A stretch of DNA of 35,050 nt from the NCBI GenBank assembly GCA_025965175.1, contig JAOPXL010000027.1:1-35050 (forward strand), read 5' to 3'. This stretch comes from Aeromicrobium sp. (GTDB taxonomy: Bacteria; Actinomycetota; Actinomycetes; Propionibacteriales; Nocardioidaceae). This document shows, piece by piece, positions 9,287-29,632 of the stretch. Below the pieces are notes generated by a model. The model made no database searches and had not been told where the DNA came from. It saw only the letters and a program-made list of their open reading frames with translations. Position numbers and translations under genes: made by a program. Positions within the stretch are counted from its first letter, which is position 1, and each line of letters opens with the position of its first letter.

Positions 9287-10747
<1,461 letters not shown>

Positions 10748-13799: not shown

Positions 13800-13812
13800 A
13801 GGAGCGTTGCGC

Positions 13813-14538
13813 ATGAGCGCACGACTGAAGGTCGTCCACACCGTGCTGGACAGGCTGGGGCGTCGGGGCTTCGAGGTCCGCCGGCACTCCGCGACGCGCC
13901 GCCAGGCGGTGCTGTCCCGGCACGGCGTGGACCTCGTGCTCGATGTCGGCGCCGCGGACGGCGGCTACGGCACGTCGCTGCGAACATTCGGCTACACCGG
14001 GGCGATCGTGTCCTTCGAGCCGCAGGCCGCGGCGTTCGGCCGGCTCGGCGAGACGATCGCCGGCGACCCGCGCTGGACCGCCCGGCACCTGGCCCTCGGC
14101 CCCGAGGCCGGTGAGGTCGAGATGAACATCGCGTCCAACAGCACCAGCAGCTCGATCCTGCCGATGCTCGACTCGCACATCGAGGCGGCCCCGTCGGTCC
14201 GCTACGTCGGCACCGAGACCGTGACGGTGTCGCGCCTGGACGACGAGTCCGCCCCACTGCTCGACGCGTACGCGCACCCGTTCCTCAAGATCGACACGCA
14301 GGGCTTCGAGCGGGAGGTGCTCGCGGGCGGCGCCGACACCGTCGCGGCCTGCGTCGGCCTGCAGCTCGAGCTGTCCCTCGTCCCGCTGTACGACGGCGGG
14401 ATGCTGATCGACGAGGCGATCGGCTGGGCGTACGACCACGGCTTCCAGATGGTGGGCCTCGAGCAGGGGTACGCGGCGCCGACCGGGGAGATCCTGCAGA
14501 TCGACGGCGTCTTTGTCCGAGACGCCGTGACGGCATGA
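13813..14538 (+). CDS. FkbM-family methyltransferase
   Basis: VLDVGAADGGYGTSLRTFGYTGAIVSFEPQAAAFGRL...PFLKIDTQGFEREVLAGG. Confidence 0.9.
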   Translation: MSARLKVVHTVLDRLGRRGFEVRRHSATRRQAVLSRHGVDLVLDVGAADGGYGTSLRTFGYTGAIVSFEPQAAAFGRLGETIAGDPRWTARHLALGPEAGEVEMNIASNSTSSSILPMLDSHIEAAPSVRYVGTETVTVSRLDDESAPLLDAYAHPFLKIDTQGFEREVLAGGADTVAACVGLQLELSLVPLYDGGMLIDEAIGWAYDHGFQMVGLEQGYAAPTGEILQIDGVFVRDAVTA

Positions 14539-14561: not shown

Positions 14562-15137
14562 GTGTCGACTGCGCCCGCCTCGGACCAGCTCAGCTTCAGC
14601 CAGCTCGTGTTCTCCGACCTCGACCGCTACCGACCCGGCAGCAGGCAGAGCTGGTTCCGCGTCCTGGTGCGCGTCCCGAGCATCCCGGGCCTGCTCGCCT
14701 CGATCATCCTGCGGGCCCAGCAGTGCCTGTTCCGCTCCGGCCGCATGACCCTGGCCCAGTCGCTCCGCACGCTCGGCAACGTCCTCGTCGGGGCCGACTT
14801 CGGCGCCGGGATGCAGATCGGCCGCGGCTTCATGATGGCCCACCCCGTGGGCGTCACGATCGGCTTCGGGCTCGTGATCGGGGACGACGTGACGTTCGCC
14901 GGCGGCGTCACCGCGGCAGCCCGCCACTACGAGGCCCGGCCCGGCGAGGAGCAGGAGTTCGCGACGATCTGCGACGGTGCCGTGATCGGCGCCAACGCGG
15001 TCCTGGTCGGCGGCGTGCGGATCGGCCGCCACGCGATGGTCGGCGCCAACTCGGTCGTGCTCAAGGACGTCGCCGACGGCGCCGTCGTCATGGGCTCGCC
15101 CGCCCGTCAGGTCGGCACCAGGGAGGTCCCCGCATGA
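14562..15137 (+). CDS. Left-handed beta-helix (serine acetyltransferase/CysE-like) acyltransferase
   Basis: IGRGFMMAHPVGVTIGFGLVIGDDVTFAGGVTAA...ICDGAVIGANAVLVGGVRIGRHAMVGANSVVLKDV hexapeptide repeats; ORF also open from ATG 14535, but TAGCGT-N7-GTG supports 14562. Confidence 0.85.
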   Translation: MSTAPASDQLSFSQLVFSDLDRYRPGSRQSWFRVLVRVPSIPGLLASIILRAQQCLFRSGRMTLAQSLRTLGNVLVGADFGAGMQIGRGFMMAHPVGVTIGFGLVIGDDVTFAGGVTAAARHYEARPGEEQEFATICDGAVIGANAVLVGGVRIGRHAMVGANSVVLKDVADGAVVMGSPARQVGTREVPA

Positions 15138-15991
15138 GTCACGACACCGCCGCGTACGACCCGGCACCCCACTACGACCGCATCACGGCCGCCTGGCAGC
15201 TGCTGCTGGGCGACGAGCTGCACTACGGCGTCTTCGCGACCGGCGACGAGCCGCTGGACGTGGCCACCCGCGCCCTGACGACCCGCATGATGGACGGCGG
15301 CCGGCTGGCCGAGCCCGGCACCGACGGCGCCCCCCTGCGGGTCCTCGACGTGGGCTGCGGATCCGGCGCACCGGCGTGCGACCTGGCCACCGAGACCGGT
15401 GTCGAGGTCGTCGGCATCACGACGAGCGCTGTCGGTGTCGACACGGCCCGGGCCCGCGCGGCCGCGCTCGGGCTGACAGGCGTGACGTTCGAGCAGCGCG
15501 ACGGGACCGACAACCGTTTCGCCGACGCCGAGTTCGACCGCGCCTGGGTGCTGGAGTCCTCGCACCTGATGCGGGACAAGGACGCGCTGGTGTCCGAGTG
15601 CGCCCGGGTGCTGCGACCCGGCGGGCGGCTCGTCCTGTGTGATCTGGTCCGCTGGCGGGAGATCCCGTTCAGCGAGGTCCGCGAGCGGCGGGTCGACTTC
15701 GCGGTGCTGCGCGAGGCCTTCGGCGACGCCCACTTCCAGTCCCTCGACGACTACGCCGCTCTCGCCGCGGCGCACGGGCTCGTCGTCGACCGCAGCGACG
15801 ACCTGACCGCCGCGACCCTGCCGACGTTCGACCGCTGGCGGGCCAACGCCGCGACCCACCACGACGAGGTCGTCGAGCTGATCGGCGTGCAGGGACACGA
15901 GGCGTTCGTGCGATCGTGCGACATCCTCGAGGCGTTCTGGCGCGACGGCACGTTCGGCTACGGGCTCATCTCGGCCACCAAGGCGTCGTGA
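15134..15991 (+). CDS. SAM-dependent methyltransferase (natural-product/UbiE-like small-molecule O-methyltransferase type)
   Basis: HYDRITAAWQLLLGDELHYGVFATGDEPL...LRVLDVGCGSGAPACDLATETGVEVVGITTSAVGVDTARARAAALGL. Confidence 0.85.
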   Translation: MSHDTAAYDPAPHYDRITAAWQLLLGDELHYGVFATGDEPLDVATRALTTRMMDGGRLAEPGTDGAPLRVLDVGCGSGAPACDLATETGVEVVGITTSAVGVDTARARAAALGLTGVTFEQRDGTDNRFADAEFDRAWVLESSHLMRDKDALVSECARVLRPGGRLVLCDLVRWREIPFSEVRERRVDFAVLREAFGDAHFQSLDDYAALAAAHGLVVDRSDDLTAATLPTFDRWRANAATHHDEVVELIGVQGHEAFVRSCDILEAFWRDGTFGYGLISATKAS

Positions 15992-16063
15992 CAAGTTGCC
16001 GCCCCCGTCGTTGATCAAGCGATGGGGCAGCCCGCCCCGGACCCCAAGGAGACACAGCGTCAC

Positions 16064-16315
16064 ATGAGCACCTCGCCCGCAGCAGTCCAGCAGACCGTGG
16101 TCGACTTCCTGACCCTGACGGCGAAGATGCGCGACGACTTCACCCCCGACATGCCGTTGTACGCCGGGGGCGTGGGACTGGACTCGCTGGAGACCGCCGA
16201 GCTGTCCGCGACCCTCGAGGACGAGCACGGCAGCGATCCGTACTCGACGGGCGAGATGCCGCAGACGCTCAACGAGATCCTCGCGTTCTACGCCGCGGCT
16301 CCCGCCGAGGCCTGA
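16064..16315 (+). CDS. Acyl carrier protein
   Basis: 83 aa with phosphopantetheine motif GGVGLDSLETAELSATLEDEHG (Ser41); RBS aaggaga upstream. Confidence 0.88.
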   Translation: MSTSPAAVQQTVVDFLTLTAKMRDDFTPDMPLYAGGVGLDSLETAELSATLEDEHGSDPYSTGEMPQTLNEILAFYAAAPAEA

Positions 16316-16322
16316 GCGCGCC

Positions 16323-17678
16323 TTGTTCGAGCTCCTGCACCGGGTCGCCCAGGAGGAGCCCGGGCGCGTCGCGGTCCTGACCCACACGGGCTCGCGGACG
16401 TACGCCGACCTGGCCGCGGACGCCCGTCGCGTCGCCGTCGCCCTCCGGCGAGAGGACATCAGCCGGTTCGCCGTCGTCGACCATGAGGCACCGGTCGTCG
16501 TGCCGCTCGTGGCCGGTGCCGCCCTGGCCGGGGTCGAGATCTGCCAGTACCCGCCGGTCGACGCGTCCGAGGTCGCGGACCTGCTCGCCCGGTTCGACCA
16601 CGACGTGCTCGTGACCGACCGCTCGGACCTCGCCGGCCTCGGAGCCCGGGTCCTGTCCTCGTCGGCGTTGATCGGGGGCCGGGAAGGAGAGGTGCCGGAG
16701 GCTCCCGTCTCCCGACCGCACCTGGTCCTCACGACCGGCACGACCGGCGCGCCCCGCGGTGTCCGGCACGACTGGAGCCGGCTGCTGCGCAGCTCCGAAC
16801 GGGTCAAGCCGGCTGCGGGGGAGCGGTGGCTACTGGCGTACGGGCTGCACCAGTTCGCCGGGCTGCAGATCCTGCTCCACGTCTTCGCCGCGGGCGCGAC
16901 CCTCGTGGCACCGGCCCCGCGCCGGCCCCGTGAGGGCCTCGCCGCGATGCGTGCCCTCGGGGTGACCCACGCGAGCGCCACGCCGACCTACTGGCGGTTC
17001 CTCCTCGCTGAGATGCGGTCCGATCGCGAGGGGGTGCCCCCGCTGCGGCAGGTCACACTGGGCGGCGAGGCGATCCCGGGGCCGCTGCTCGGCGACCTGC
17101 AGCAGGCCTTCCCGGACGCCGCGATCTCGCAGGTCTACGCGGCGTCCGAGTTCGGCTCGACGGGATCGGTGCGCGACGCCCGTCCGGGGCTGTCGACCGC
17201 GGTCCTGGACCGCGGCGACGACGCCGACGTCGACATGCGGATCGTCGACGGCGAGCTGTGGATCCGCTCCCGCACCGGCATGCTCGGCTACCACGGCGAG
17301 CCCGCGGTCGACGCCGACGGCTGGCGCGCGACCGGCGACCGGGTCGAGGTCGAGGGCGACCGCATCCGGTTCCGTGGCCGGACATCGGAGATCATCAACG
17401 TCGGCGGCGTCAAGGTGCACCCACTCCCGATCGAGGAGCGCGTTTCGGCGATTCCCGGGGTCGACATGGCCCGCGTCTTCGGTCGCCCCAGCGCCATGAC
17501 CGGCGCGATCGTCGCGCTCGAGGTCGTGGCCGCCCCCGACGCCGACCCGGCCGCGCTCAAGGCCGCGATCCGGGCCGCCTGTGCCGACCTCGCCCCAGCC
17601 GCCCAGCCCCGCAGCATCCGCTTCGTCGACGACATCGTCACGGCGGGCAGCAAGATCGTCAGGAGAGACATTCAGTGA
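16323..17678 (+). CDS. AMP-dependent acyl-CoA/acyl-ACP synthetase (ANL superfamily)
   Basis: LTTGTTGAPRGVRHDW (P-loop), YAASEFGSTGSV, TGDRVEVEGDRIRFRGRTSEIINVGGVKVHP, C-terminal AGSKIVRRD; TTG start. Confidence 0.88.
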   Translation: MFELLHRVAQEEPGRVAVLTHTGSRTYADLAADARRVAVALRREDISRFAVVDHEAPVVVPLVAGAALAGVEICQYPPVDASEVADLLARFDHDVLVTDRSDLAGLGARVLSSSALIGGREGEVPEAPVSRPHLVLTTGTTGAPRGVRHDWSRLLRSSERVKPAAGERWLLAYGLHQFAGLQILLHVFAAGATLVAPAPRRPREGLAAMRALGVTHASATPTYWRFLLAEMRSDREGVPPLRQVTLGGEAIPGPLLGDLQQAFPDAAISQVYAASEFGSTGSVRDARPGLSTAVLDRGDDADVDMRIVDGELWIRSRTGMLGYHGEPAVDADGWRATGDRVEVEGDRIRFRGRTSEIINVGGVKVHPLPIEERVSAIPGVDMARVFGRPSAMTGAIVALEVVAAPDADPAALKAAIRAACADLAPAAQPRSIRFVDDIVTAGSKIVRRDIQ

Positions 17679-18409
17679 GCAGTGAACCGCGCGTCGTCAT
17701 CGTCACCGGCGGGAGCCGGGGACTCGGGGCCGGCATCGTCGAGTCCTATCTCGCCTCCGGCGACCGGGTCGCGGCCTGCGCCCGCTCCGTCACGCCCGAG
17801 GTCGAGGCGTGGCGGCAGAGCCATCCCGACCACTTCCTGTTCCTGACCGCCGACCTGTCGAGCTCGACTGACGCCAAGACGTTCGTCGACGAGGTCATCG
17901 CCCGCTGGGACCACGTCGACGTCCTGATCAACAATGCCGGCGTGGCGCGGGACGGGATCCTGGCGATGGCGTCCGACGAGGACATCGACGTCGTCGTCGA
18001 CCTCAACATCAAGGGCACCCTCTACATGTCCCGGCTCGTCAGCCGGCGCATGCTGGCGCGGCGGTCAGGGTCGATCGTCAACATCTCCTCGATCGTCGGC
18101 CGGTCGGGCTACCGCGGTCTCGGCGTCTACAGCGCGACGAAGGCCGCGCTCGACGGGCTCACCCGGTCGATGTCGCGCGAGCTCGGCTCACGGGGTATCA
18201 CGGTCAACGGGATCGCCCCGGGCTACCTCAAGACCGAGATGAGCCACGGCCTCGACGAGGCGCAGATGGGTCAGATCGTCCGCCGGACGCCGGCCGGCCG
18301 GCTGGGGGATCCCGACGACATCGCGCGGGTGTGCCAGTTCCTGACCGATCCGCGCAACGACTACCTGACCGGTCAGGTCATCGTCGTGGACGGCGGTCTC
18401 ACGAGCTGA
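17675..18409 (+). CDS. Short-chain dehydrogenase (FabG/3-oxoacyl-ACP reductase-like)
   Basis: VIVTGGSRGLGAGIVE, NNAGVARDG, YSATKAALDGLTRSMSRELGSRGITVNGIAPGYLKTEM; 4-bp overlap with the ligase. Confidence 0.9.
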   Translation: MSSEPRVVIVTGGSRGLGAGIVESYLASGDRVAACARSVTPEVEAWRQSHPDHFLFLTADLSSSTDAKTFVDEVIARWDHVDVLINNAGVARDGILAMASDEDIDVVVDLNIKGTLYMSRLVSRRMLARRSGSIVNISSIVGRSGYRGLGVYSATKAALDGLTRSMSRELGSRGITVNGIAPGYLKTEMSHGLDEAQMGQIVRRTPAGRLGDPDDIARVCQFLTDPRNDYLTGQVIVVDGGLTS

Positions 18410-19679
18410 CGCTGACGGTCGGCCGTGGTCCGCGCTGGATCACGGCCCCCAGGCCCAGGCAGCTGAGCAGGCCCGCGACGACCAGGCTGGCTCCCACGCC
18501 CTCGAGGCTGTCCTGGTGGGCCGCGGCGACGATGCCGACCAGCAGGACCGGCAGCACCGCGAGCTCGATCCAGGAGGCTATCGCGCCCCTCCCCTGCCCC
18601 TGCAGCACCGCGATCAGGACGCTGCGCAGCGCCAGCAGGCCGTCGGCGACGATCAGCCAGCGGGCGCAGTCCACCGCGCCGACGAACTCCTCACCGAACG
18701 CCAGGCGGATGACGGGCTCCACGACGACCTCGAGCCCACCGACGATGACGACGACGAGCCCGGTCGTGATGCCGACCCACCGACGGACGACAGCGCGCTG
18801 GGCCTCCGGATCAGCCTGGTGCATCGCGACCCGGGGCAGGACGATGACCCGCACCGCGTTGCTGACCAGCCGGCACAGGTTGGACACCGCGAGCGCCGTC
18901 GCGAACAGGCCCAGGGAGACCGTGCCGAGCAGCCCGCCGACAAGGATGCGGTCGAGCCCAAGCCCGTCGAGTGGCCGGACGCTGCTGACGTAGTTGCGCC
19001 GGGCCTCCGACCACATCGCGGGCTCCGGGATCTCCTCCACGCCGCCCCGGGCCGGCAACAGCTGGGTCCAGGAGAACACGACGCCGAGCAGTCCCGTCAC
19101 GACGTAGGCGGCCAGGACGTCGTACGCGCTCCAGCTCCAGCTGGCGGCCGCGACGACGACCAGGACGATCGTGAACGCGCCCTGCGGGACCAGCGCGACC
19201 CATGCCATTCGGACGAACCGCCCCTCGCCCTGCAGGCAGCCGGCGAGGACCTGGAACACCAGGGTCTGGAACGTCACGACGAAGACGATGACCGCCGTCG
19301 CCAGCACCTCGCCGCCGTCGGCGTCCTGCAGGACCGGCACGAACGCCGCCGCGACGGCGCAGGGCGCCAGGACGAGCCACGCCCGCCGGCGGGCGGTGCC
19401 CCCGAGACCGTCGCGGGCGGTGACCTGCCGCTCGGCCACGAGCTTGGTCAGCGCCGCCGGCAGGCTCCCGCCGAACGTCAGCTGCGAGGCGAACAGGCCG
19501 ATCGCGACGACGAGTGCGACCAGGCCGCGGCCCTCGACGCCGAGCAGGCGGGCCATGACGACGCCGGTCACGAGGGTCAGGAGCTGCAGCCCGAACGTCG
19601 CGAACACGATCAGGACGAACGCGAACCGGTCACGCATCTGCGGACGGACGGCGCTGGCCTCGCTGAGCTCCTCCGACAC
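18399..19679 (-). CDS. Polysaccharide flippase (Wzx/MATE-like membrane protein)
   Basis: RFAFVLIVFATFGLQLLTLVTGVVMARLLGVEGRGLVALVVAIGLFASQLTFGGSLPAALTKLVAE, ~12 TM; GTG start. Confidence 0.85.
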   Translation of the reverse strand: MSEELSEASAVRPQMRDRFAFVLIVFATFGLQLLTLVTGVVMARLLGVEGRGLVALVVAIGLFASQLTFGGSLPAALTKLVAERQVTARDGLGGTARRRAWLVLAPCAVAAAFVPVLQDADGGEVLATAVIVFVVTFQTLVFQVLAGCLQGEGRFVRMAWVALVPQGAFTIVLVVVAAASWSWSAYDVLAAYVVTGLLGVVFSWTQLLPARGGVEEIPEPAMWSEARRNYVSSVRPLDGLGLDRILVGGLLGTVSLGLFATALAVSNLCRLVSNAVRVIVLPRVAMHQADPEAQRAVVRRWVGITTGLVVVIVGGLEVVVEPVIRLAFGEEFVGAVDCARWLIVADGLLALRSVLIAVLQGQGRGAIASWIELAVLPVLLVGIVAAAHQDSLEGVGASLVVAGLLSCLGLGAVIQRGPRPTVSVSS

Positions 19680-19757: not shown

Positions 19758-20576
19758 ATGCCGACACCCCTACCGCTTCCGCTCCGCGTCCTCGTCAAGG
19801 GCGCCTCGACCGTCAACTGGGTCTCGTGGATGGGTGGACCGCGTGAGGACTTCATCTTCCCGCGGGTGATTCAGGAGCAGCTCCTCGCCGGTGGTCGGCC
19901 CACCGAGGTCCAGACCATCACCATGACGTCTGAACGGACCTCGTCGATCCTGCGCACCTGGCAGGCCGAGGTGCTGGGCTACTCGCCCGACGTCGTCGTG
20001 CTGGTCTACGGCCACTACGAGACGATCCACCTGTTCATCCCCCGCTGGCTCGAGGTGCACGCCAACAGCCTGCGGTGGGCGCCCCGGCGCCTCCAGTCGG
20101 CCTACCGCCGACTCGTCCTGCGGCCGGTGTGGAAGGCGCTCGCACGGGCGCAGGCCAAGATCGACTCGATCCTGCCGCCGACCCTGCGCCGCGGCCGTCC
20201 CCGTCAGGTCGCCGCGGACCTCGAGCGCTACATCTCGCACGTGCAGAGCGTCGGCAGCCCCCTCGTCCTCGTGTTCGAGCTGCTGCCTCCCGGCAGCCGC
20301 TACCGGACCTGGTTCCCGGGCATGGCGCGACGCATCGAGGTCATGAACGACACCCTCCGGACAATGGTCGACGGCATCGGCCGGGACAACGTCCGCTGGT
20401 TCCCGGTCGCCCCGCTGGTCGAGGAGCACGTCGCCGGTGACATCGACCTGGCGATCCCGGACGGGTTCCACTACTCGCCCCAGATGCACCGGCACATCGG
20501 CACGGCGCTGGCCCGGGAGATCGATGCGTGGGCCGCGACGCAGAATCATCTGACCAAGGGCCAAGAAGTGCTCTGA
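19758..20576 (+). CDS. Divergent SGNH/GDSL-type hydrolase or O-acyltransferase
   Basis: LVKGASTVNWVSWMGG (block I-like), VVVLVYGHYE (block III-like), IPDGFHYSPQMHRHIG (DxxH block V). Confidence 0.65.
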   Translation: MPTPLPLPLRVLVKGASTVNWVSWMGGPREDFIFPRVIQEQLLAGGRPTEVQTITMTSERTSSILRTWQAEVLGYSPDVVVLVYGHYETIHLFIPRWLEVHANSLRWAPRRLQSAYRRLVLRPVWKALARAQAKIDSILPPTLRRGRPRQVAADLERYISHVQSVGSPLVLVFELLPPGSRYRTWFPGMARRIEVMNDTLRTMVDGIGRDNVRWFPVAPLVEEHVAGDIDLAIPDGFHYSPQMHRHIGTALAREIDAWAATQNHLTKGQEVL

Positions 20577-20606: not shown

Positions 20607-21605
20607 ATGCCCACTCCCACCTCCGCCCCGCAGTCAGCCAAGCAGCGGGTCGCCCGGTACCTCCCGGGTCACGTTGTCGAGTCGCTCGACAAGGTGGTGT
20701 TCGGGTTCCGCAGGCTGCGCATCCGCACCGCCCAGCGCTTCTTCGGGCTGCTCGGCTTCAACATCGTCAAGAAGGACGACTACTACTCGACGCTGCCGGT
20801 GCTCGCGGAGATCGAGCAGACCCGCGCACGCTGGGACCGCCCCAGCGAGCTCGTCGGCATCGACATCGACGTGCCGACGATGATCACGACCCTCGAGGGC
20901 CTCGCCGAGCGGTGGGAGGAGGAGTTCGCGACGGTGACGGGCGACTACCTCACCAACACGACCCGCGGCTTCGGCCCCGGCTACCCGCAACTCGACGCCC
21001 GGACGCTCTACTACACGCTGCGCGAGCACAAGCCGGCCCGCTACCTCGAGATCGGCTCGGGACTGTCGACGTACTACGCCTCGCTCGCTGCTGAGCGCAA
21101 CGCCGCTGAGGGATCACCGCTACAGATCACCTGCATCGAGCCCTACCCGTTCGAGGCGCTGCGCACGATCGACAACTTTGAGCTCGTCGAGGGCTTCGTG
21201 CAGGACGTCCCGCTGTCGACGTTCGAGGCACTCGAGGACGGGGACGTGCTGTTCATCGACTCGTCCCACGCGCTCAAGATCGACAGCGACGTCGCGTTCC
21301 TCTTCCTCGAGGTGCTGCCGCGGCTCAAGCCCGGCGTCATCGTGCACATCCACGACGTGCACTTCCCGTTCAACGGGCCGTTCCCGGCCGACACGTGGCT
21401 CTTCGGGGAGCGGTGGCCGGTCTACTGGAACGAGGCGATGGTCGTCCAGATCTTCCTGGCGCACAACACGGCGTACCGCGTCCTGCTCTCCACGCCCATG
21501 ATCCGCCACGAGGACGAGGGTGTCCTCAAGAGCCTGTTCGACGACTACACACCCCTGGCGGCCGACGCGAACCCGTCCTCGTCCCTCTGGCTCCGCCGGG
21601 TCTGA
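20607..21605 (+). CDS. Class I SAM-dependent methyltransferase (Methyltransf_24-like)
   Basis: ARYLEIGSGLSTYYASLAAERN...ITCIEPYPFEALRTI...VLFIDSSHALKIDSDVAFLFLEVLPRLKPGVIVHIHDVHFPF. Confidence 0.85.
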   Translation: MPTPTSAPQSAKQRVARYLPGHVVESLDKVVFGFRRLRIRTAQRFFGLLGFNIVKKDDYYSTLPVLAEIEQTRARWDRPSELVGIDIDVPTMITTLEGLAERWEEEFATVTGDYLTNTTRGFGPGYPQLDARTLYYTLREHKPARYLEIGSGLSTYYASLAAERNAAEGSPLQITCIEPYPFEALRTIDNFELVEGFVQDVPLSTFEALEDGDVLFIDSSHALKIDSDVAFLFLEVLPRLKPGVIVHIHDVHFPFNGPFPADTWLFGERWPVYWNEAMVVQIFLAHNTAYRVLLSTPMIRHEDEGVLKSLFDDYTPLAADANPSSSLWLRRV

Positions 21606-21715: not shown

Positions 21716-22681
21716 TCAGGCGCGCTTGGCGAGGATGTCGTAGATCCAGGCGTACGTCTTCTCGAGCCCGTCACGCAGCGAGATCGAGGGCTCCCAGCCG
21801 TACGTCTCGTGGAACATCGTGTTGTCGCTGTTGCGGCCACGGACGCCCTGCGGTGCCGTGAGGTCGTGGTTCTTGGTGACCGTGATGCCGGCGATGTCCT
21901 CGAGGATCCCGATCATCTGGTTGATCGTCACGAGCTCGGACGAGCCGAGGTTGACCGGCTCGACGTTGTCGCCGTTGAGGATCGTCTGGGTCCCCTTGAC
22001 GCAGTCGTCGATGTACATGAACGACCGGCTCTGCTCGCCGTCTCCCCACACGTCGATCGTGTGGTCGCCGCTGAGCTTGGCCTGGGCGATCTTGCGTGAG
22101 AGCGCGGCGGGGGCCTTCTCGCGGCCGCCCTCGAACGTGCCCTCGGGGCCGTAGACGTTGTGATAGCGCGCGATCCGGGTCTTGAGGCCGAAGTCCTCCC
22201 GGAAGTGGCGGGCCATGCGCTCGCTGAACAGCTTCTCCCAGCCGTAGCCGTCCTCAGGATCGGCGGGATAGGCGTCGGACTCCTTGAGCGCGGTCACGTC
22301 GGGATCGGTCTGCTTGTCGCCGGCGTAGACGCAGGCCGAGCTGCTGTAGAAGAAGCTCTCGGTCCCGGAGTCCTTCGCGGCGACCAGCATGTTGGTGCTC
22401 GTCAGGACCGACAGCATGCACTCGGCCTTGTTGTTCTCGATGAAGCCCATGCCGCCCATGTCGGCCGCGAGGTTGTAGATCGTCTCGGTGCCGATCGCCA
22501 TCTTGTGGGCGTCGACCGGGTCGGCGCAGTCGGCGACGACGTTGTCGACGCCGTCGTGCACTTGGTACCACTCCTCGAGCGGCTTGACGTCGACCGAGCG
22601 GACGTCCTTGCCCTGCTTCACCAGGTCGGCCACGAGGTGTCCGCCGATGAATCCGCCGCCACCAGTCACGAGTACGGTCAT
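21716..22681 (-). CDS. NAD-dependent epimerase, GDP-mannose 3,5-epimerase-like
   Basis: TGGGGFIGGHLV, NLAADMGGMGFI, YSSSACVYAG, YGWEK, RYHNVYGPEGTFEGGREKAPAAL, VRGRNSDN: hallmark blocks of plant-type GME. Confidence 0.85.
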   Translation of the reverse strand: MTVLVTGGGGFIGGHLVADLVKQGKDVRSVDVKPLEEWYQVHDGVDNVVADCADPVDAHKMAIGTETIYNLAADMGGMGFIENNKAECMLSVLTSTNMLVAAKDSGTESFFYSSSACVYAGDKQTDPDVTALKESDAYPADPEDGYGWEKLFSERMARHFREDFGLKTRIARYHNVYGPEGTFEGGREKAPAALSRKIAQAKLSGDHTIDVWGDGEQSRSFMYIDDCVKGTQTILNGDNVEPVNLGSSELVTINQMIGILEDIAGITVTKNHDLTAPQGVRGRNSDNTMFHETYGWEPSISLRDGLEKTYAWIYDILAKRA

Positions 22682-22912: not shown

Positions 22913-24343
22913 GTGGACCTGCGTCAATTCCTTGGCATCCTGCGCGTTCGCGTGAAGTTCATCCTCTCGACCTTCATCCTCGGTGCCATCGCCACGGTCC
23001 TGCTCGTCCTGAGCATGTCTCCGGTCTACGGGTCCAGCACGAAGCTGTTTATCACCACGCCCGTCGGCCAGCAGGCCACGGACACGACGGCCGCGTTCTT
23101 CGCCGCGCAGCGCCTCGCGTCGTACGCCGACCTGGCCCGCGAGCCCACGCTCCTGCAGGACGTCATCGACAAGCTCAACCTGACCGACATGACCCGCGAC
23201 GAGCTTGCCGACATGGTCACCGCCCAGGTCATCACCGCGACGCAGACCCTGCAGATCGACGTCCGGGCCTCGACGCCCACGCTGGCGCAGGACATCGCTG
23301 AGGCCGAGGCGCAGGGTCTGGTCAGCCTGGTCGCGAGACTCGAGAAGCCGTCGACCGGCGACGGCGTCCCAGCGTTCGTCGCGCGCGTCGTCGGGCCGGC
23401 CAGCATCAGCCAGTCGCCCGTCTCGCCCAACGTCCCGCTCAACATCGTGGTCGGCCTGATGCTGAGCCTGTTCATCGGCATCGCCGGCGCCGTCCTGCGG
23501 GACCTGCTGGACCGCACCGTCAAGACCCGCCAGGACGCCGAGGAGATCACGGCCACCGCGGTCCTCGCGACGCTCCCGTTCGACCGGCAGGTCAAGAGGC
23601 AGGCCCTCAGCAACGAAGGTCACGGCGCGCTCGCCGAGGCGTTCCGCGTGCTGCGCACCAACCTGCAGTTCGCCAACCTGGACTCGAAGGTCGAGCTGTT
23701 GCTCGTCTCGAGCGCCGTGCCGAACGAGGGCAAGACGCTCGTCGCGACCAACTTGGCGATGTCGATGGCGCAGTCGGGCCGCAGCGTCCTGCTGATCGAC
23801 GCCGACATGCGCAACCCCAACGTCGCCGAGCTGCTCGGCCTGGAGAACTCGGTCGGGCTCATGACGGTCCTGATCGGCCGGGCGTCGCTCGACGAGGCGA
23901 TCCAGTCCCACGCCAGCGGCATCAGCTTCCTCGGCACCGGCCCACGCCCGCCCAACCCGGCCGAGGTGCTCGACACGCAGGCCATGAAGGACCTGCTCGC
24001 CGGCGCGCGTGGCCTCTACGACGTCGTGATCATCGACGCCCCGCCGATGCTGCCGGTCGCGGACGCCTCGATCCTGATGCGCGAAGTCGACGGCGCCCTC
24101 ATGCTGATCCGCTACGGCTCGACGACGCGTGAGCAGCTGAGGCTCGCGGTCGCCCGCATCGAGACGGTCGGCGGGCGCCTGTTCGGCACGATCCTCAACC
24201 GGACGCCGCGGCGCTCGGGCGATGCATACGGCTACGGGTACGGCTACGGCTACGGCTACGGCGAGCCGGTGGAGCCGGCCCGCAAGAGCATGTTCACCCG
24301 GACCGAGAAGCGACCGGTCCCGAGCCGTCGATCCGTCGGCTAG
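22913..24343 (+). CDS. Wzz-like chain-length determinant fused to BY-kinase (polysaccharide tyrosine autokinase)
   Basis: VDLRQFLGILRVRVKFILSTFILGAIATVLLV (Wzz), SSAVPNEGKTLVATNLAMSMAQSGRSVLLIDADMRNP (Walker A/A'), VVIIDAPPMLPVADA; C-term YGYGYGYGYGYG. Confidence 0.93.
   Translation: MDLRQFLGILRVRVKFILSTFILGAIATVLLVLSMSPVYGSSTKLFITTPVGQQATDTTAAFFAAQRLASYADLAREPTLLQDVIDKLNLTDMTRDELADMVTAQVITATQTLQIDVRASTPTLAQDIAEAEAQGLVSLVARLEKPSTGDGVPAFVARVVGPASISQSPVSPNVPLNIVVGLMLSLFIGIAGAVLRDLLDRTVKTRQDAEEITATAVLATLPFDRQVKRQALSNEGHGALAEAFRVLRTNLQFANLDSKVELLLVSSAVPNEGKTLVATNLAMSMAQSGRSVLLIDADMRNPNVAELLGLENSVGLMTVLIGRASLDEAIQSHASGISFLGTGPRPPNPAEVLDTQAMKDLLAGARGLYDVVIIDAPPMLPVADASILMREVDGALMLIRYGSTTREQLRLAVARIETVGGRLFGTILNRTPRRSGDAYGYGYGYGYGYGEPVEPARKSMFTRTEKRPVPSRRSVG
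24227..24262 (+). repeat. 6 x 6-bp coding microsatellite (TACGGC/TACGGG) encoding (YG)6
   Basis: Direct reading: tacggc tacggg tacggc tacggc tacggc tacggc. Confidence 0.95.
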
Positions 24344-24350
24344 GCACGAC

Positions 24351-25706
24351 GTGGCGGTCAAGGCCCGGCGGGCCCGTGCAGGGGCGCGGCCCGCGATGTC
24401 CGAGGTGCGGCGTCGGCTGGCACGGGCCGTCGACGGCGCGACGCCGGCGCTGCTCGTCGTGGTCCTGCTGGCCCTGCTGATCCCCATCGCGACGGGGTCG
24501 GTGATCGGTGCCGCCGCCGCGCTGGGTCTGACTGTGCTGCTCATCGTCCTGGTGACCGTCGGCATCGAGCAGACCGCGACCGCCCTGCTCCTGGTCGCGG
24601 TCGCCATGGCGCCGATGAACAACGTCAAGCCCGTCGCGGCGATCAGCTTCGTGACGATGTCGGACGTGTTCTTCTTCCTGGGCGTGGGGCTGCTCCTCCC
24701 GATCCTCATGACGAAGGGGTTCCAGCGTCAGGCCCCGTTCCTGATCGGCGTGGCCGGGATCTTCGTCGTCGGGCTGGTCAGCTCCGCCGCCAGCGCGGAC
24801 CCGGTCGCGAGCCTCAACGGGCTGCTGCGCCTCGTGGTCGGCGCCCTGCTGCTGCCGATCGTGTTCATGCTGTGGCGTCCGGGTCAGCGGGTCCTGGTGG
24901 CGTTCGCGGGGGCGTACGTCCTGGGCACCGCGATCAGCGTCGCGAAGGGCCGCATCAGCGGGGTCACCTCGACCGACGGCCGCTTCGGCGGTCTCACCGA
25001 GCACCCCAACATCCTCGGCCTCACCGGCATGCTCGCGGTCACCCTGGTGCCGTTCCTGTTCGCCGCGCTCCCGGGCGCGTACCGCTGGGCGGCGTTGGCC
25101 GCGGGCGCGGTGTGCGCCTACGGCATCTGGATCAGCGGGAGCCGAGCCGCGCTGGTGGGCACCGTCGTGGTCGCTGTGGTCTACCTGCTGCTGTCGCGCC
25201 GGGTCGAGCACGCGCTGGTGTTCTTCGGGCTCAGCATCATCCCGGTCTACGTCGTGGGTCAGACGCTCGCGTCGGGAGTCGTGGACTCCAGCCCGCTGGG
25301 TCGCCTGCAGGGCGGTGGGTCGGCGACGCTCTCGGACGTCGACCGGCAGAACCTCGCCCGGGTCGCGTGGGACAACTTCGTCTCCCACCCGATCATCGGC
25401 ACGGGGTTCGGCGACGCGTCGATCGCGCACAACATCTACCTGCAGGTCGCGGCGGCCGGCGGCGTCCTCGCGCTGGTCTGCTATCTCGGGATCCTGTTCG
25501 CCACAGCGCGTCAGCCGTTGCTGCTCGGCGCGCCCTACTCCCTGCTGGCGCTGCCGGCGATGGGCTACGCCCTGGTCGGTCCGCTGACGCCGCTGCTGTG
25601 GGACCGCTACATCTGGTGCGTGCTGGCCCTGCCGTTCCTCCTCGATCGCCCCGGGCCGCAGGAGGTCCCGTCCGCGGCCGGGACGACCCCGGAGGTCCGC
25701 CGATGA
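24351..25706 (+). CDS. O-antigen ligase/polymerase-like membrane protein (Wzy/WaaL family)
   Basis: Multi-TM; GRFGGLTEHPNILGLTGMLAVTLVP, GIWISGSRAALVGTVVV, HPIIGTGFGDASIAHNIYLQVAAAGGVLALVCY. Confidence 0.88.
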   Translation: MAVKARRARAGARPAMSEVRRRLARAVDGATPALLVVVLLALLIPIATGSVIGAAAALGLTVLLIVLVTVGIEQTATALLLVAVAMAPMNNVKPVAAISFVTMSDVFFFLGVGLLLPILMTKGFQRQAPFLIGVAGIFVVGLVSSAASADPVASLNGLLRLVVGALLLPIVFMLWRPGQRVLVAFAGAYVLGTAISVAKGRISGVTSTDGRFGGLTEHPNILGLTGMLAVTLVPFLFAALPGAYRWAALAAGAVCAYGIWISGSRAALVGTVVVAVVYLLLSRRVEHALVFFGLSIIPVYVVGQTLASGVVDSSPLGRLQGGGSATLSDVDRQNLARVAWDNFVSHPIIGTGFGDASIAHNIYLQVAAAGGVLALVCYLGILFATARQPLLLGAPYSLLALPAMGYALVGPLTPLLWDRYIWCVLALPFLLDRPGPQEVPSAAGTTPEVRR

Positions 25707-26725
25707 GTGCCGGCCTCGACCTGCGCCCCACCGCCCTGATCACCGGCGTCTCGGGCCAGGACGGGATGTACCTCGCGCGCCACCTCCTGTCGCAGGGCTG
25801 GCGGGTCGTCGGCACGGTCCGGCCCGGCATCTCCTCGATCGCGCGCACGGCGCCCTACCTCACGGGCGTCGAGATCGTCGAGCACGACCTCGTAGACACC
25901 GCCGGGTTCGGCGAGCTGCTGAGCCGCGTCGTCCCCCGAGCGGTCTTCAACCTCGCCGCGTTCAGCGCCGTCGGTCGCAGCTGGAACGAGCCGGGACTGG
26001 CCTCGCGCACCAACATGGTCGCGGTCGTCGAGATGCTCCAGTGCCTGCTGCGGCACCGGGACAAGAACGCCCAGGACGTGCGCTTCTTCCAGGCCTCGAC
26101 CGCGGAGATCTTCGGCAGCGACGTCGACGGCGCCCTCGACGAGGCGACGCCACACCGGCCGCGGACGCCCTACGCGATCGCGAAGAGCGCGGCGCACCAC
26201 GCGGTCATCAGCTATCGCGAGCGCTACGGCCTGTTCGCGTGCAACGGCGTCCTGTTCAACCACGAGAGCCCGTTCCGTGGCCAGCAGTTCGTGGCCGGCA
26301 AGATCTCCCACGCCGCGGCCGCGGCCGCCTCCGGGCGCCACCTGACCGTCTCGCTGGGCGACCTCGACGTCGAGCGGGACTGGGGCTCGGCGGCCAACTA
26401 CGTCGTCGCGATGGCCGCCGTGCTGGCCCACGACGTGCCCGGCGACTACGTCATCGGCACCGGCACGACCCACACCCTGCGCGACATGCTGCGCTCGGCG
26501 TTCGCCGCGGTGGGCCGCGACGACTTCGAGGACCACGTCGAGCTGCTGCCGCACCTGTGGAGCGCCACCCAGGCCAAGGCCCTGCTGGCCGATCCGGGTA
26601 AGGCGCGACGGGAGCTGGGCTGGGCGGCCACGACGACGTTCGACGAGCTGATCGCCGAGATGGTCGCGATCGACGTGGAGCGCATCCGGACCGGCGTCGC
26701 GGAGTCGGAGACCTACCTGCGGTGA
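25703..26725 (+). CDS. GDP-mannose 4,6-dehydratase-like NAD-dependent epimerase/dehydratase
   Basis: ALITGVSGQDGMYLARHLL, QASTAEIFGSDVDG, YAIAKSAAHHAVISYRERYGLFACNGVLFNHESPFRGQQFVAGKI. Confidence 0.82.
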   Translation: MSAGLDLRPTALITGVSGQDGMYLARHLLSQGWRVVGTVRPGISSIARTAPYLTGVEIVEHDLVDTAGFGELLSRVVPRAVFNLAAFSAVGRSWNEPGLASRTNMVAVVEMLQCLLRHRDKNAQDVRFFQASTAEIFGSDVDGALDEATPHRPRTPYAIAKSAAHHAVISYRERYGLFACNGVLFNHESPFRGQQFVAGKISHAAAAAASGRHLTVSLGDLDVERDWGSAANYVVAMAAVLAHDVPGDYVIGTGTTHTLRDMLRSAFAAVGRDDFEDHVELLPHLWSATQAKALLADPGKARRELGWAATTTFDELIAEMVAIDVERIRTGVAESETYLR

Positions 26726-28855: not shown

Positions 28856-29632
28856 TCAGGCCTCGACGGCCGGGCGGTCGACGACGGGGAAGACCTGCTG
28901 GACCAGGCCGCCCGTGAGCTGGGGCGCGGAGGTGCTGATCGTCAGGTCGACCGGCGGTGCCTGGACGATCGAGCCGGAGGTGTGACGGTCGATCAGGGCC
29001 AGCACGTCCTGACAGCTCAGGCTGGGCCGCAGGTGCAGCACGATGAGGATCGTCAGGGCGATGATCTTGATGTCGAGCAGGACGGAGTAGGAGCGCAGGC
29101 AGCCGCGGCTGTAGGCGCCCTCGAGATCGAGCCGCTCGCGGTCGGAGAGCACCTGGCGACCCACGAGCTGGGCGGGGCCGGTCAGGCCGGCCGGGGTCAG
29201 GAAGCGGTCGCCCGCGTTGCCGTGCTCCTCCGCGAGGCAGTCCATCACGTTCTGGGGAAGGGGACGGTTGCCGACCATGCTCATCTCGCCGCGCAGGATG
29301 TGCAGGAACTGGGGCAGCTCCGTGACGCCGAAGCGTTCCAGGAGGCGACCGGGCCGGGTGTAGAGCGGTGAGTCCGGCGGGATGTTGAGGAAACGGACGT
29401 TGTCGTCGCACGGCACGGTGTCGCGGTTGACGAGCTCGGCGGCGTTGCGGACCATCGTGCGGAACTTGATGATCCGGATCGGCTCGGCCGTCGTGACCTT
29501 GCGCATCGAGGCGTAGAAGATGGGTCGGCCCGACATCAGCAGGACCAGCAGGGCGCCGAGCAGGACCGTCGGAACCCACACGAGCCCGCCGGCGATGCAC
29601 AGGGCGAGGTCGAAGAACCGTTTGCTCCTCAT
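28856..29632 (-). CDS. Bacterial sugar transferase (polyprenyl-phosphate glycosyl-1-phosphate transferase, WcaJ/ExoY-like)
   Basis: KRFFDLALCIAGGLVWVPTVLLGALLVLLMSGRPIFYASMRK...IIKFRTM, LPQFLHILRGEMSMVGNRPL, LTGPAQL. Confidence 0.9.
   Translation of the reverse strand: MRSKRFFDLALCIAGGLVWVPTVLLGALLVLLMSGRPIFYASMRKVTTAEPIRIIKFRTMVRNAAELVNRDTVPCDDNVRFLNIPPDSPLYTRPGRLLERFGVTELPQFLHILRGEMSMVGNRPLPQNVMDCLAEEHGNAGDRFLTPAGLTGPAQLVGRQVLSDRERLDLEGAYSRGCLRSYSVLLDIKIIALTILIVLHLRPSLSCQDVLALIDRHTSGSIVQAPPVDLTISTSAPQLTGGLVQQVFPVVDRPAVEA

Follow-up and report, generated by a model that had tools for sequence, protein, structure and literature searches.

What is a run of genes for an acyltransferase, a methyltransferase, a carrier protein, a ligase and a reductase doing in the middle of an actinobacterial polysaccharide locus? 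The genes occupy positions 14562 to 18409 of a 35,050-nucleotide stretch of Aeromicrobium sp. DNA (assembly GCA_025965175.1, contig JAOPXL010000027.1), which we analyzed over its full length and refer to as the window; its source, a soil-type actinobacterium, is represented by an Aeromicrobium metagenome-assembled genome (MAG) of 2.96 Mb in 241 contigs. Bacterial glycans can carry unusual acyl groups that influence phage binding and immune recognition, yet most of the genes behind these groups have not been assigned. A preliminary description of the window had proposed that the five genes form a mini-pathway that builds a hydroxy- or O-methyl-acyl group on an acyl carrier protein (ACP) and installs it on a sugar of the glycan. 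We favor, with moderate confidence, a reading close to this one, in which an acyl group is tailored on the cassette's dedicated ACP and then attached to a sugar in the repeat-unit polysaccharide of the locus. The five genes, however, are not the natural unit. The conserved core consists of the ACP, the ligase and the reductase (the triad), whereas the methyltransferase is exchangeable with a PapA-type acyltransferase, and the left-handed β-helix (LbH) acyltransferase is drawn from several subfamilies.

All five genes lie consecutively on the forward strand, separated by short gaps or joined by 4-bp overlaps as first described, and the Pfam and NCBIfam family calls agree. The LbH acyltransferase, which is CysE/EpsC-like and matches Pfam Hexapep, starts at 14535 (ATG) or 14562 (GTG) and ends at 15137; it is our candidate for the terminal transfer to sugar. 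Its gene overlaps by 4 bp with that of a RebM/AtM1-like SAM-dependent methyltransferase (MT; 15134..15991; Methyltransf_11/25), which would O-methylate the hydroxyl made by the reductase. The stand-alone ACP of 83 residues (16064..16315; PF00550, PP-binding) follows after a 72-bp gap, and 7 bp separate it from an ANL-superfamily acyl-AMP ligase of 451 residues with a TTG start (16323..17678; AMP-binding and AMP-binding_C), proposed to load the ACP. The ligase gene in turn shares 4 bp with that of a FabG-like short-chain dehydrogenase/reductase (SDR; GTG start; 17675..18409; adh_short/FabG-like), a predicted 3-oxoacyl-ACP (or 2-oxoacyl-ACP) reductase. No ketosynthase or AT (acyltransferase) had been visible at first reading, and our searches agree: Pfam scans of the called window genes found neither, and blastp against all window open reading frames found no ketoacyl-ACP synthase III (KAS III).

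We asked whether the same genes occur together elsewhere. Among 397 genomes of the order, a search for the ligase gave 34 positives, all in two genera of the family, and a separate ACP search of the same genomes gave 38, comprising all 34 ligase-positive genomes and 4 of the 363 ligase-negative ones (Fisher 4e-45, relatedness ignored). Of 33 ligase loci, 31 have the ACP next to or close to the ligase (30 according to the gene calls, plus L058 from the ACP search), and 30 have the SDR there. Two loci lacked both ACP and SDR (L043 and L048); their genomes hold further copies, L127 (ACP-SDR-MT) and L063. A ligase-only scan of a species-genome collection returned 58 loci; 57 of them have the SDR and at least 54 have the ACP, and some of the exceptions lie on truncated contigs. 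These loci span Nocardioidaceae to Smaragdicoccus, Acidimicrobiales, Paraconexibacter, Phycisphaerales, Halieaceae and Chloroflexota, and homologous triads are found on plasmids of Azospirillum, Haematobacter, Qingshengfaniella and Bradyrhizobium; the nearest relative of the window ligase, at 93% identity, is in an Aeromicrobium MAG (L065). Because the same genes are found together in dozens of further genomes and the presence of ACP and ligase is almost perfectly linked, the arrangement is far from chance: it is a portable module and not an accidental neighborhood. The co-occurrence search that the preliminary description called for turned up the core, in most cases within a glycan locus, in Actinomycetota, Halieaceae, Phycisphaerales, Chloroflexota and alphaproteobacterial plasmids. 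The pattern supports the ACP, ligase and SDR as one functional unit.

In a third genus, two glycan loci (L123 in genome G352 and L126 in G155) have retained adjacent ACP and SDR genes; the ligase is not next to them, and the only ligase-like matches elsewhere in these genomes are distant ones. We considered a substitute loader (FkbH or a ketosynthase) for the four ACP-positive genomes without a nearby ligase and rejected it; the neighbors there are ordinary, and again only distant ligase-like matches occur elsewhere. A contig of 30% GC that was binned as Heimdallarchaeota (L119) also holds ACP-ligase-SDR, which may reflect contamination of the bin or transfer.

ACP, ligase and SDR all look functional, with their family-defining residues intact. 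The ACP matches PF00550 with an E value of 9e-4, just under the Pfam cut-off; its phosphopantetheine Ser41 lies in GLDSLE, and D40 and S41, set in a distinctive motif, are invariant in 37 aligned sequences. Against PDB sequences it gave generic ACP matches only, all of them weak. The ligase keeps a TTGTTG motif, the hinge region GR.SE.INVGGVKVHP and the C-terminal catalytic Lys444 (20 aligned sequences), and in the SDR the residues S139, Y152 and K156 are invariant and the stretch GYRGL (145-149) is conserved in 22 aligned sequences across phyla. When the AF2 model of the ligase (pLDDT 84.7) was used in Foldseek, many ANL enzymes with very different substrates matched at similar scores, including CytC1, MenE, CBL, DltA and MatB. 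Because these matches are about equally good, the acid substrate cannot be read from the fold.

The presence of DltA among these equally good matches is consistent with a Dlt-like scheme, in which an amino or hydroxy acid is loaded onto the ACP without further modification and esterified directly to a wall or surface polymer, and the SDR does no more than supply the hydroxy acid or act on a sugar. Dlt D-alanylation employs the ligase DltA, the carrier DltC and the MBOAT protein DltB. The window shares with it an ANL ligase, a stand-alone carrier and the presumed delivery of an acyl group to a cell-surface polymer, and relatives of the cassette in Halieaceae do carry an MBOAT, as Dlt systems do. 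However, Pfam identified neither an MBOAT nor a DltD-like gene among the called window genes, the window has an SDR and an MT, and transfer would probably be cytoplasmic. Furthermore, the SDR is tied to the triad as tightly as the ACP is, and some lineages have KAS III alongside the triad. We therefore consider a Dlt-like role improbable.

Is the product of the triad destined for a glycan? The window genes surrounding the cassette include several glycosyltransferases and, by Pfam and NCBIfam, make up a Wzx/Wzy-type polysaccharide locus, and the triad lies among glycan genes in most annotated relatives across phyla. This argues against a rival in which the product of the triad is a lipid or a small natural product with no connection to the glycan, and its place in the locus is incidental. 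One relative does fit such a role: on the Bradyrhizobium elkanii plasmid pS05J (L135), a related ligase-SDR-ACP set, downstream of an IS3-type element, stands directly before a type I polyketide synthase (PKS). On balance, we find an unrelated product very improbable.

Returning to acyl groups for glycans, the neighborhoods of distant relatives are informative. The Chloroflexota locus L118 reads ACP-ligase-SDR-LbH-FdtA-FdtA-DegT-flippase, a set predicted to be for an N-acylated 3-amino-3,6-dideoxyhexose. In the Azospirillum loci (L131 and L132) the triad lies between pseI and flagellin with KAS III directly downstream, and its proteins match those of the window at 275-283 bits (ligase), 252-263 bits (SDR) and 37 bits (ACP). 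Haematobacter and Qingshengfaniella carry an acyltransferase gene directly upstream of ACP-ligase-SDR. The Halieaceae loci are ordered ACP-ligase-SDR-MT, and each of the five (L110 and L112-L115) also has an MBOAT O-acyltransferase gene nearby, in most cases in convergent orientation. KAS III is also found beside the triad in L122 and within the L115 locus, and its presence there would point to 3-oxoacyl chemistry for the SDR. These unrelated contexts share one probable theme, in which an acyl group is built on the ACP and then passed to a sugar of the cell surface. Taken with the earlier proposal, the triad as a unit, its home in glycan loci and an acyltransferase that travels with it (LbH, elsewhere MBOAT) all fit a hydroxy- or O-methyl-acyl group for a glycan sugar; what did not stand is the five-gene set as the unit. 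As a separate observation, the Halieaceae loci L112-L115 encode, besides the MBOAT, a family of proteins of ~300-390 residues with no Pfam match, possibly MBOAT partners.

What would tailor the acyl group? The MT that adjoins the triad belongs to a coherent family across Actinomycetota and Gammaproteobacteria (43-85% identity). We looked within 4.5 kb of 59 ligases, that of the window and the 58 from the species-genome scan: an MT lies near 30 and a PapA-type acyltransferase (PF16911) near 12, and no ligase has both nearby. Of 10 PapA-type members checked, 9 have the HHxxxD motif. The chance of zero overlap is 5e-5 with fixed margins and relatedness ignored, and the ligase tree requires at least six changes between MT and PapA. 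The exchange can be seen in a single slot, as LbH-ACP-SDR-MT-ligase in L084 and L095 becomes LbH-ACP-SDR-PapA-ligase in L087, L090 and L096. Nocardioides pelophilus (L095, with MT) and N. stalactiti (L090, with PapA) form a close pair of this kind. Methyltransferases and PapA-type acyltransferases both act on hydroxyls. Because of this, and because the SDR would make a hydroxyl, we infer that the SDR product is what MT and PapA cap, the alternative being a sugar hydroxyl as their common target. In a group of triad loci from Nocardioides and Pimelobacter (L045, L052-L056 and L060-L062), a sulfotransferase is encoded as well; the majority of these loci include the PapA-type enzyme, and L045 has an MT instead.

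The alternative of a sugar hydroxyl can be extended to a full account of the cassette, in which the triad makes a hydroxyacyl-ACP, the MT O-methylates a sugar, the LbH protein O-acetylates a sugar from acetyl-CoA, and another enzyme, for example a nearby GDSL protein, transfers the acyl group. The nearest solved structures to the MT (3bus and 6uv6, RebM and AtM1) are those of sugar O-methyltransferases, and some loci hold the triad without an MT. In contrast, one MT family stays by the triad in Halieaceae despite a different locus, and swaps with PapA in the slot. The LbH protein is closest to serine and exopolysaccharide (EPS) acetyltransferases: its NCBIfam matches are to EpsC and CysE, below the equivalog cut-offs, and it aligns with the serine acetyltransferases 6wye and 4n69 in the PDB through the catalytic region. 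It nevertheless neighbors the triad in related loci, and an LbH or other acyltransferase adjoins the triad in unrelated phyla. We also considered a strict mutual exclusion of LbH31 and MT and rejected it, as both are present in some loci. The GDSL/SGNH protein (19758..20576, forward strand; Lipase_GDSL_2) comes after the SDR in many related loci, is retained beside the cassette and weakly matches diglucosylglycerate octanoyltransferase in NCBIfam; its role may be acyl transfer or acyl hydrolysis, and possibly a peripheral one. Overall, we regard this division of labor as unlikely, though with more than a token claim.

Under our preferred reading, in which the acyl group itself is tailored on the ACP, the pathway could run in four steps. 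The ANL ligase would adenylate a small carboxylic acid and load it onto the phosphopantetheine of the ACP, as its family and its linkage to the ACP suggest. The FabG-like SDR would then reduce a keto group of the ACP-bound acyl chain to a hydroxyl; the keto-acyl group could come directly from a keto acid (for example acetoacetate) or, because relatives with a local KAS III exist, from a housekeeping ketosynthase. The RebM-like MT would methylate this hydroxyl, a step taken elsewhere by the PapA-type acyltransferase in the same slot, judging from the replacement of one by the other. Finally, the LbH protein would acylate a nucleoside diphosphate (NDP)-sugar or lipid-linked sugar in the cytoplasm, at a hydroxyl or, with lower probability, at an amine. 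This transfer would precede Wzx flipping and Wzy polymerization of the unit, and a deoxysugar hydroxyl of the repeat unit is the candidate target.

Several observations weigh against this pathway. RebM and AtM1, the nearest solved relatives of the MT, methylate sugars, and the LbH protein, being CysE-like, could simply use acetyl-CoA; its counterparts in relatives come from several different LbH subfamilies. The SDR scores 228 bits against TIGR01830 in NCBIfam, below the cut-off of 298. We considered the two ACP-docking arginines of FabG as proof of an ACP substrate and rejected this, since only one is conserved: the equivalent of R172 is kept and that of R129 is variable among SDR relatives. 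The statistic on MT/PapA exclusion ignores relatedness; the ligase tree was built by a quick method, and one of its rows (L072) is mis-called. The window has no ketosynthase that would account for the keto-acyl group, and for close relatives no product structure is available for comparison.

How does the cassette relate to known systems? Aeromonas group II flagellin-glycosylation islands list an ACP, an AMP ligase and a FabG-like reductase together with LuxE and LuxC (PMC7874193), and flagellin islands of Enterobacteriaceae contain similar Acp/CaiC/FabG/LuxE/LuxC sets (PMC4875605). In these islands function was likewise only inferred, as a 'liposugar' component (PMC7874193, PMC4875605). By gene type, the level at which we compared them, these islands have the same three genes in a glycan locus; they differ in adding LuxE and LuxC and in modifying flagellin, whereas the window combines the triad with an MT and an LbH protein in a Wzx/Wzy locus. 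Pfam found no match to a LuxE acyl-protein synthetase or a LuxC acyl-CoA reductase among the called window genes. The Azospirillum pse flagellin islands carry a homologous ACP-ligase-SDR in the same order; they differ in encoding a KAS III of their own and an alpha/beta hydrolase, and their likely acceptor is pseudaminic acid. In Vibrio cholerae O1, WbeL (471 residues) is predicted to act in tetronate synthesis on the perosamine O-antigen (PMC3441752). It is a stand-alone ligase of an O-antigen locus, needed for an acyl group on each repeat-unit sugar; the window too has a stand-alone ligase in a polysaccharide locus, with a predicted role in acylation. The acceptor in V. cholerae, however, is the amino sugar perosamine, and the window has no aminotransferase: DegT gave no match on the window contig and one strong match on a different contig of the MAG. 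For want of an aminotransferase in the locus, an amino-sugar acceptor is not supported for the window. Other wbe genes of V. cholerae O1 have roles in making the tetronate, and their reductases belong to different families from the window SDR. The lack of a ketosynthase likewise sets the window apart from chain building of the fatty acid synthase (FAS) or PKS type. Because LuxE/LuxC, an aminotransferase and an MBOAT, respectively, are absent, we do not file the cassette with the Aeromonas, wbe or Dlt systems.

The combination had first been put forward as a candidate for an undescribed system. This holds in part: the ACP, ligase and FabG types are already in the published flagellin islands (PMC7874193, PMC4875605), and we did not find their combination with MT/PapA and LbH/MBOAT described. 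The ACP-ligase-SDR kind of set is known, as is tetronate-style tailoring of acyl sugars; as far as our searches show, what is undescribed is the combination of such a set with caps (MT/PapA) and transferases (LbH/MBOAT) that can be exchanged, in polysaccharide loci of actinobacteria and others. A search of the literature for acyl structures in Nocardioides or Aeromicrobium glycans, or for enzymes of the kansosamine N-acyl group, found nothing useful. We tentatively hypothesize, with somewhat less than even confidence, a cross-phylum module, undescribed as one system, in which the triad makes a hydroxyacyl thioester, interchangeable enzymes cap its hydroxyl (O-methyl by MT, O-acyl by PapA) and interchangeable transferases (LbH intracellular, MBOAT at the membrane) deliver it, giving combinatorial non-sugar substituents of surface glycans. 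If this is true, one recognizable triad would predict such acyl groups in many phyla, including in flagellin islands, where its role has been presumed to be fatty-acid synthesis; the MT/PapA exchange would make the capping chemistry readable from sequence, and the LbH/MBOAT exchange the delivery route.

The genes flanking the cassette set it in its locus. Directly upstream, overlapping the LbH gene by 4 bp, is an FkbM-family methyltransferase (13807..14538, forward strand; TIGR01444, PF05050), which is in this position in most Aeromicrobium-type loci and is probably a sugar O-methyltransferase; it belongs to the same gene run as the LbH cassette, possibly as one operon. Downstream, a Wzx-type flippase (18399..19679, reverse strand; Polysacc_synt_3), a marker of the glycan context, is convergent with the SDR. 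The GDSL protein is followed by a Methyltransf_24 protein (20607..21605, forward strand), and the presence of both after the cassette in most Aeromicrobium-type loci suggests a second conserved block. Farther on lie a fucose-synthase-like epimerase (21716..22681), a Wzz/tyrosine-kinase (22913..24343), a Wzy-like protein (24396..25706), a GDP-mannose 4,6-dehydratase-like enzyme (25703..26725, forward strand; GDP_Man_Dehyd E 2e-90; TIGR01472 at 255 bits, below the cut-off) and an initiating sugar-phosphate transferase (28856..29632). The dehydratase-like enzyme could supply a deoxysugar, and its product may be the acceptor sugar. An IMP-dehydrogenase-domain protein that also contains CBS domains (9287..10744, reverse strand) is encoded at the locus edge and belongs to a cluster with members in seven of the compared loci, the window included.

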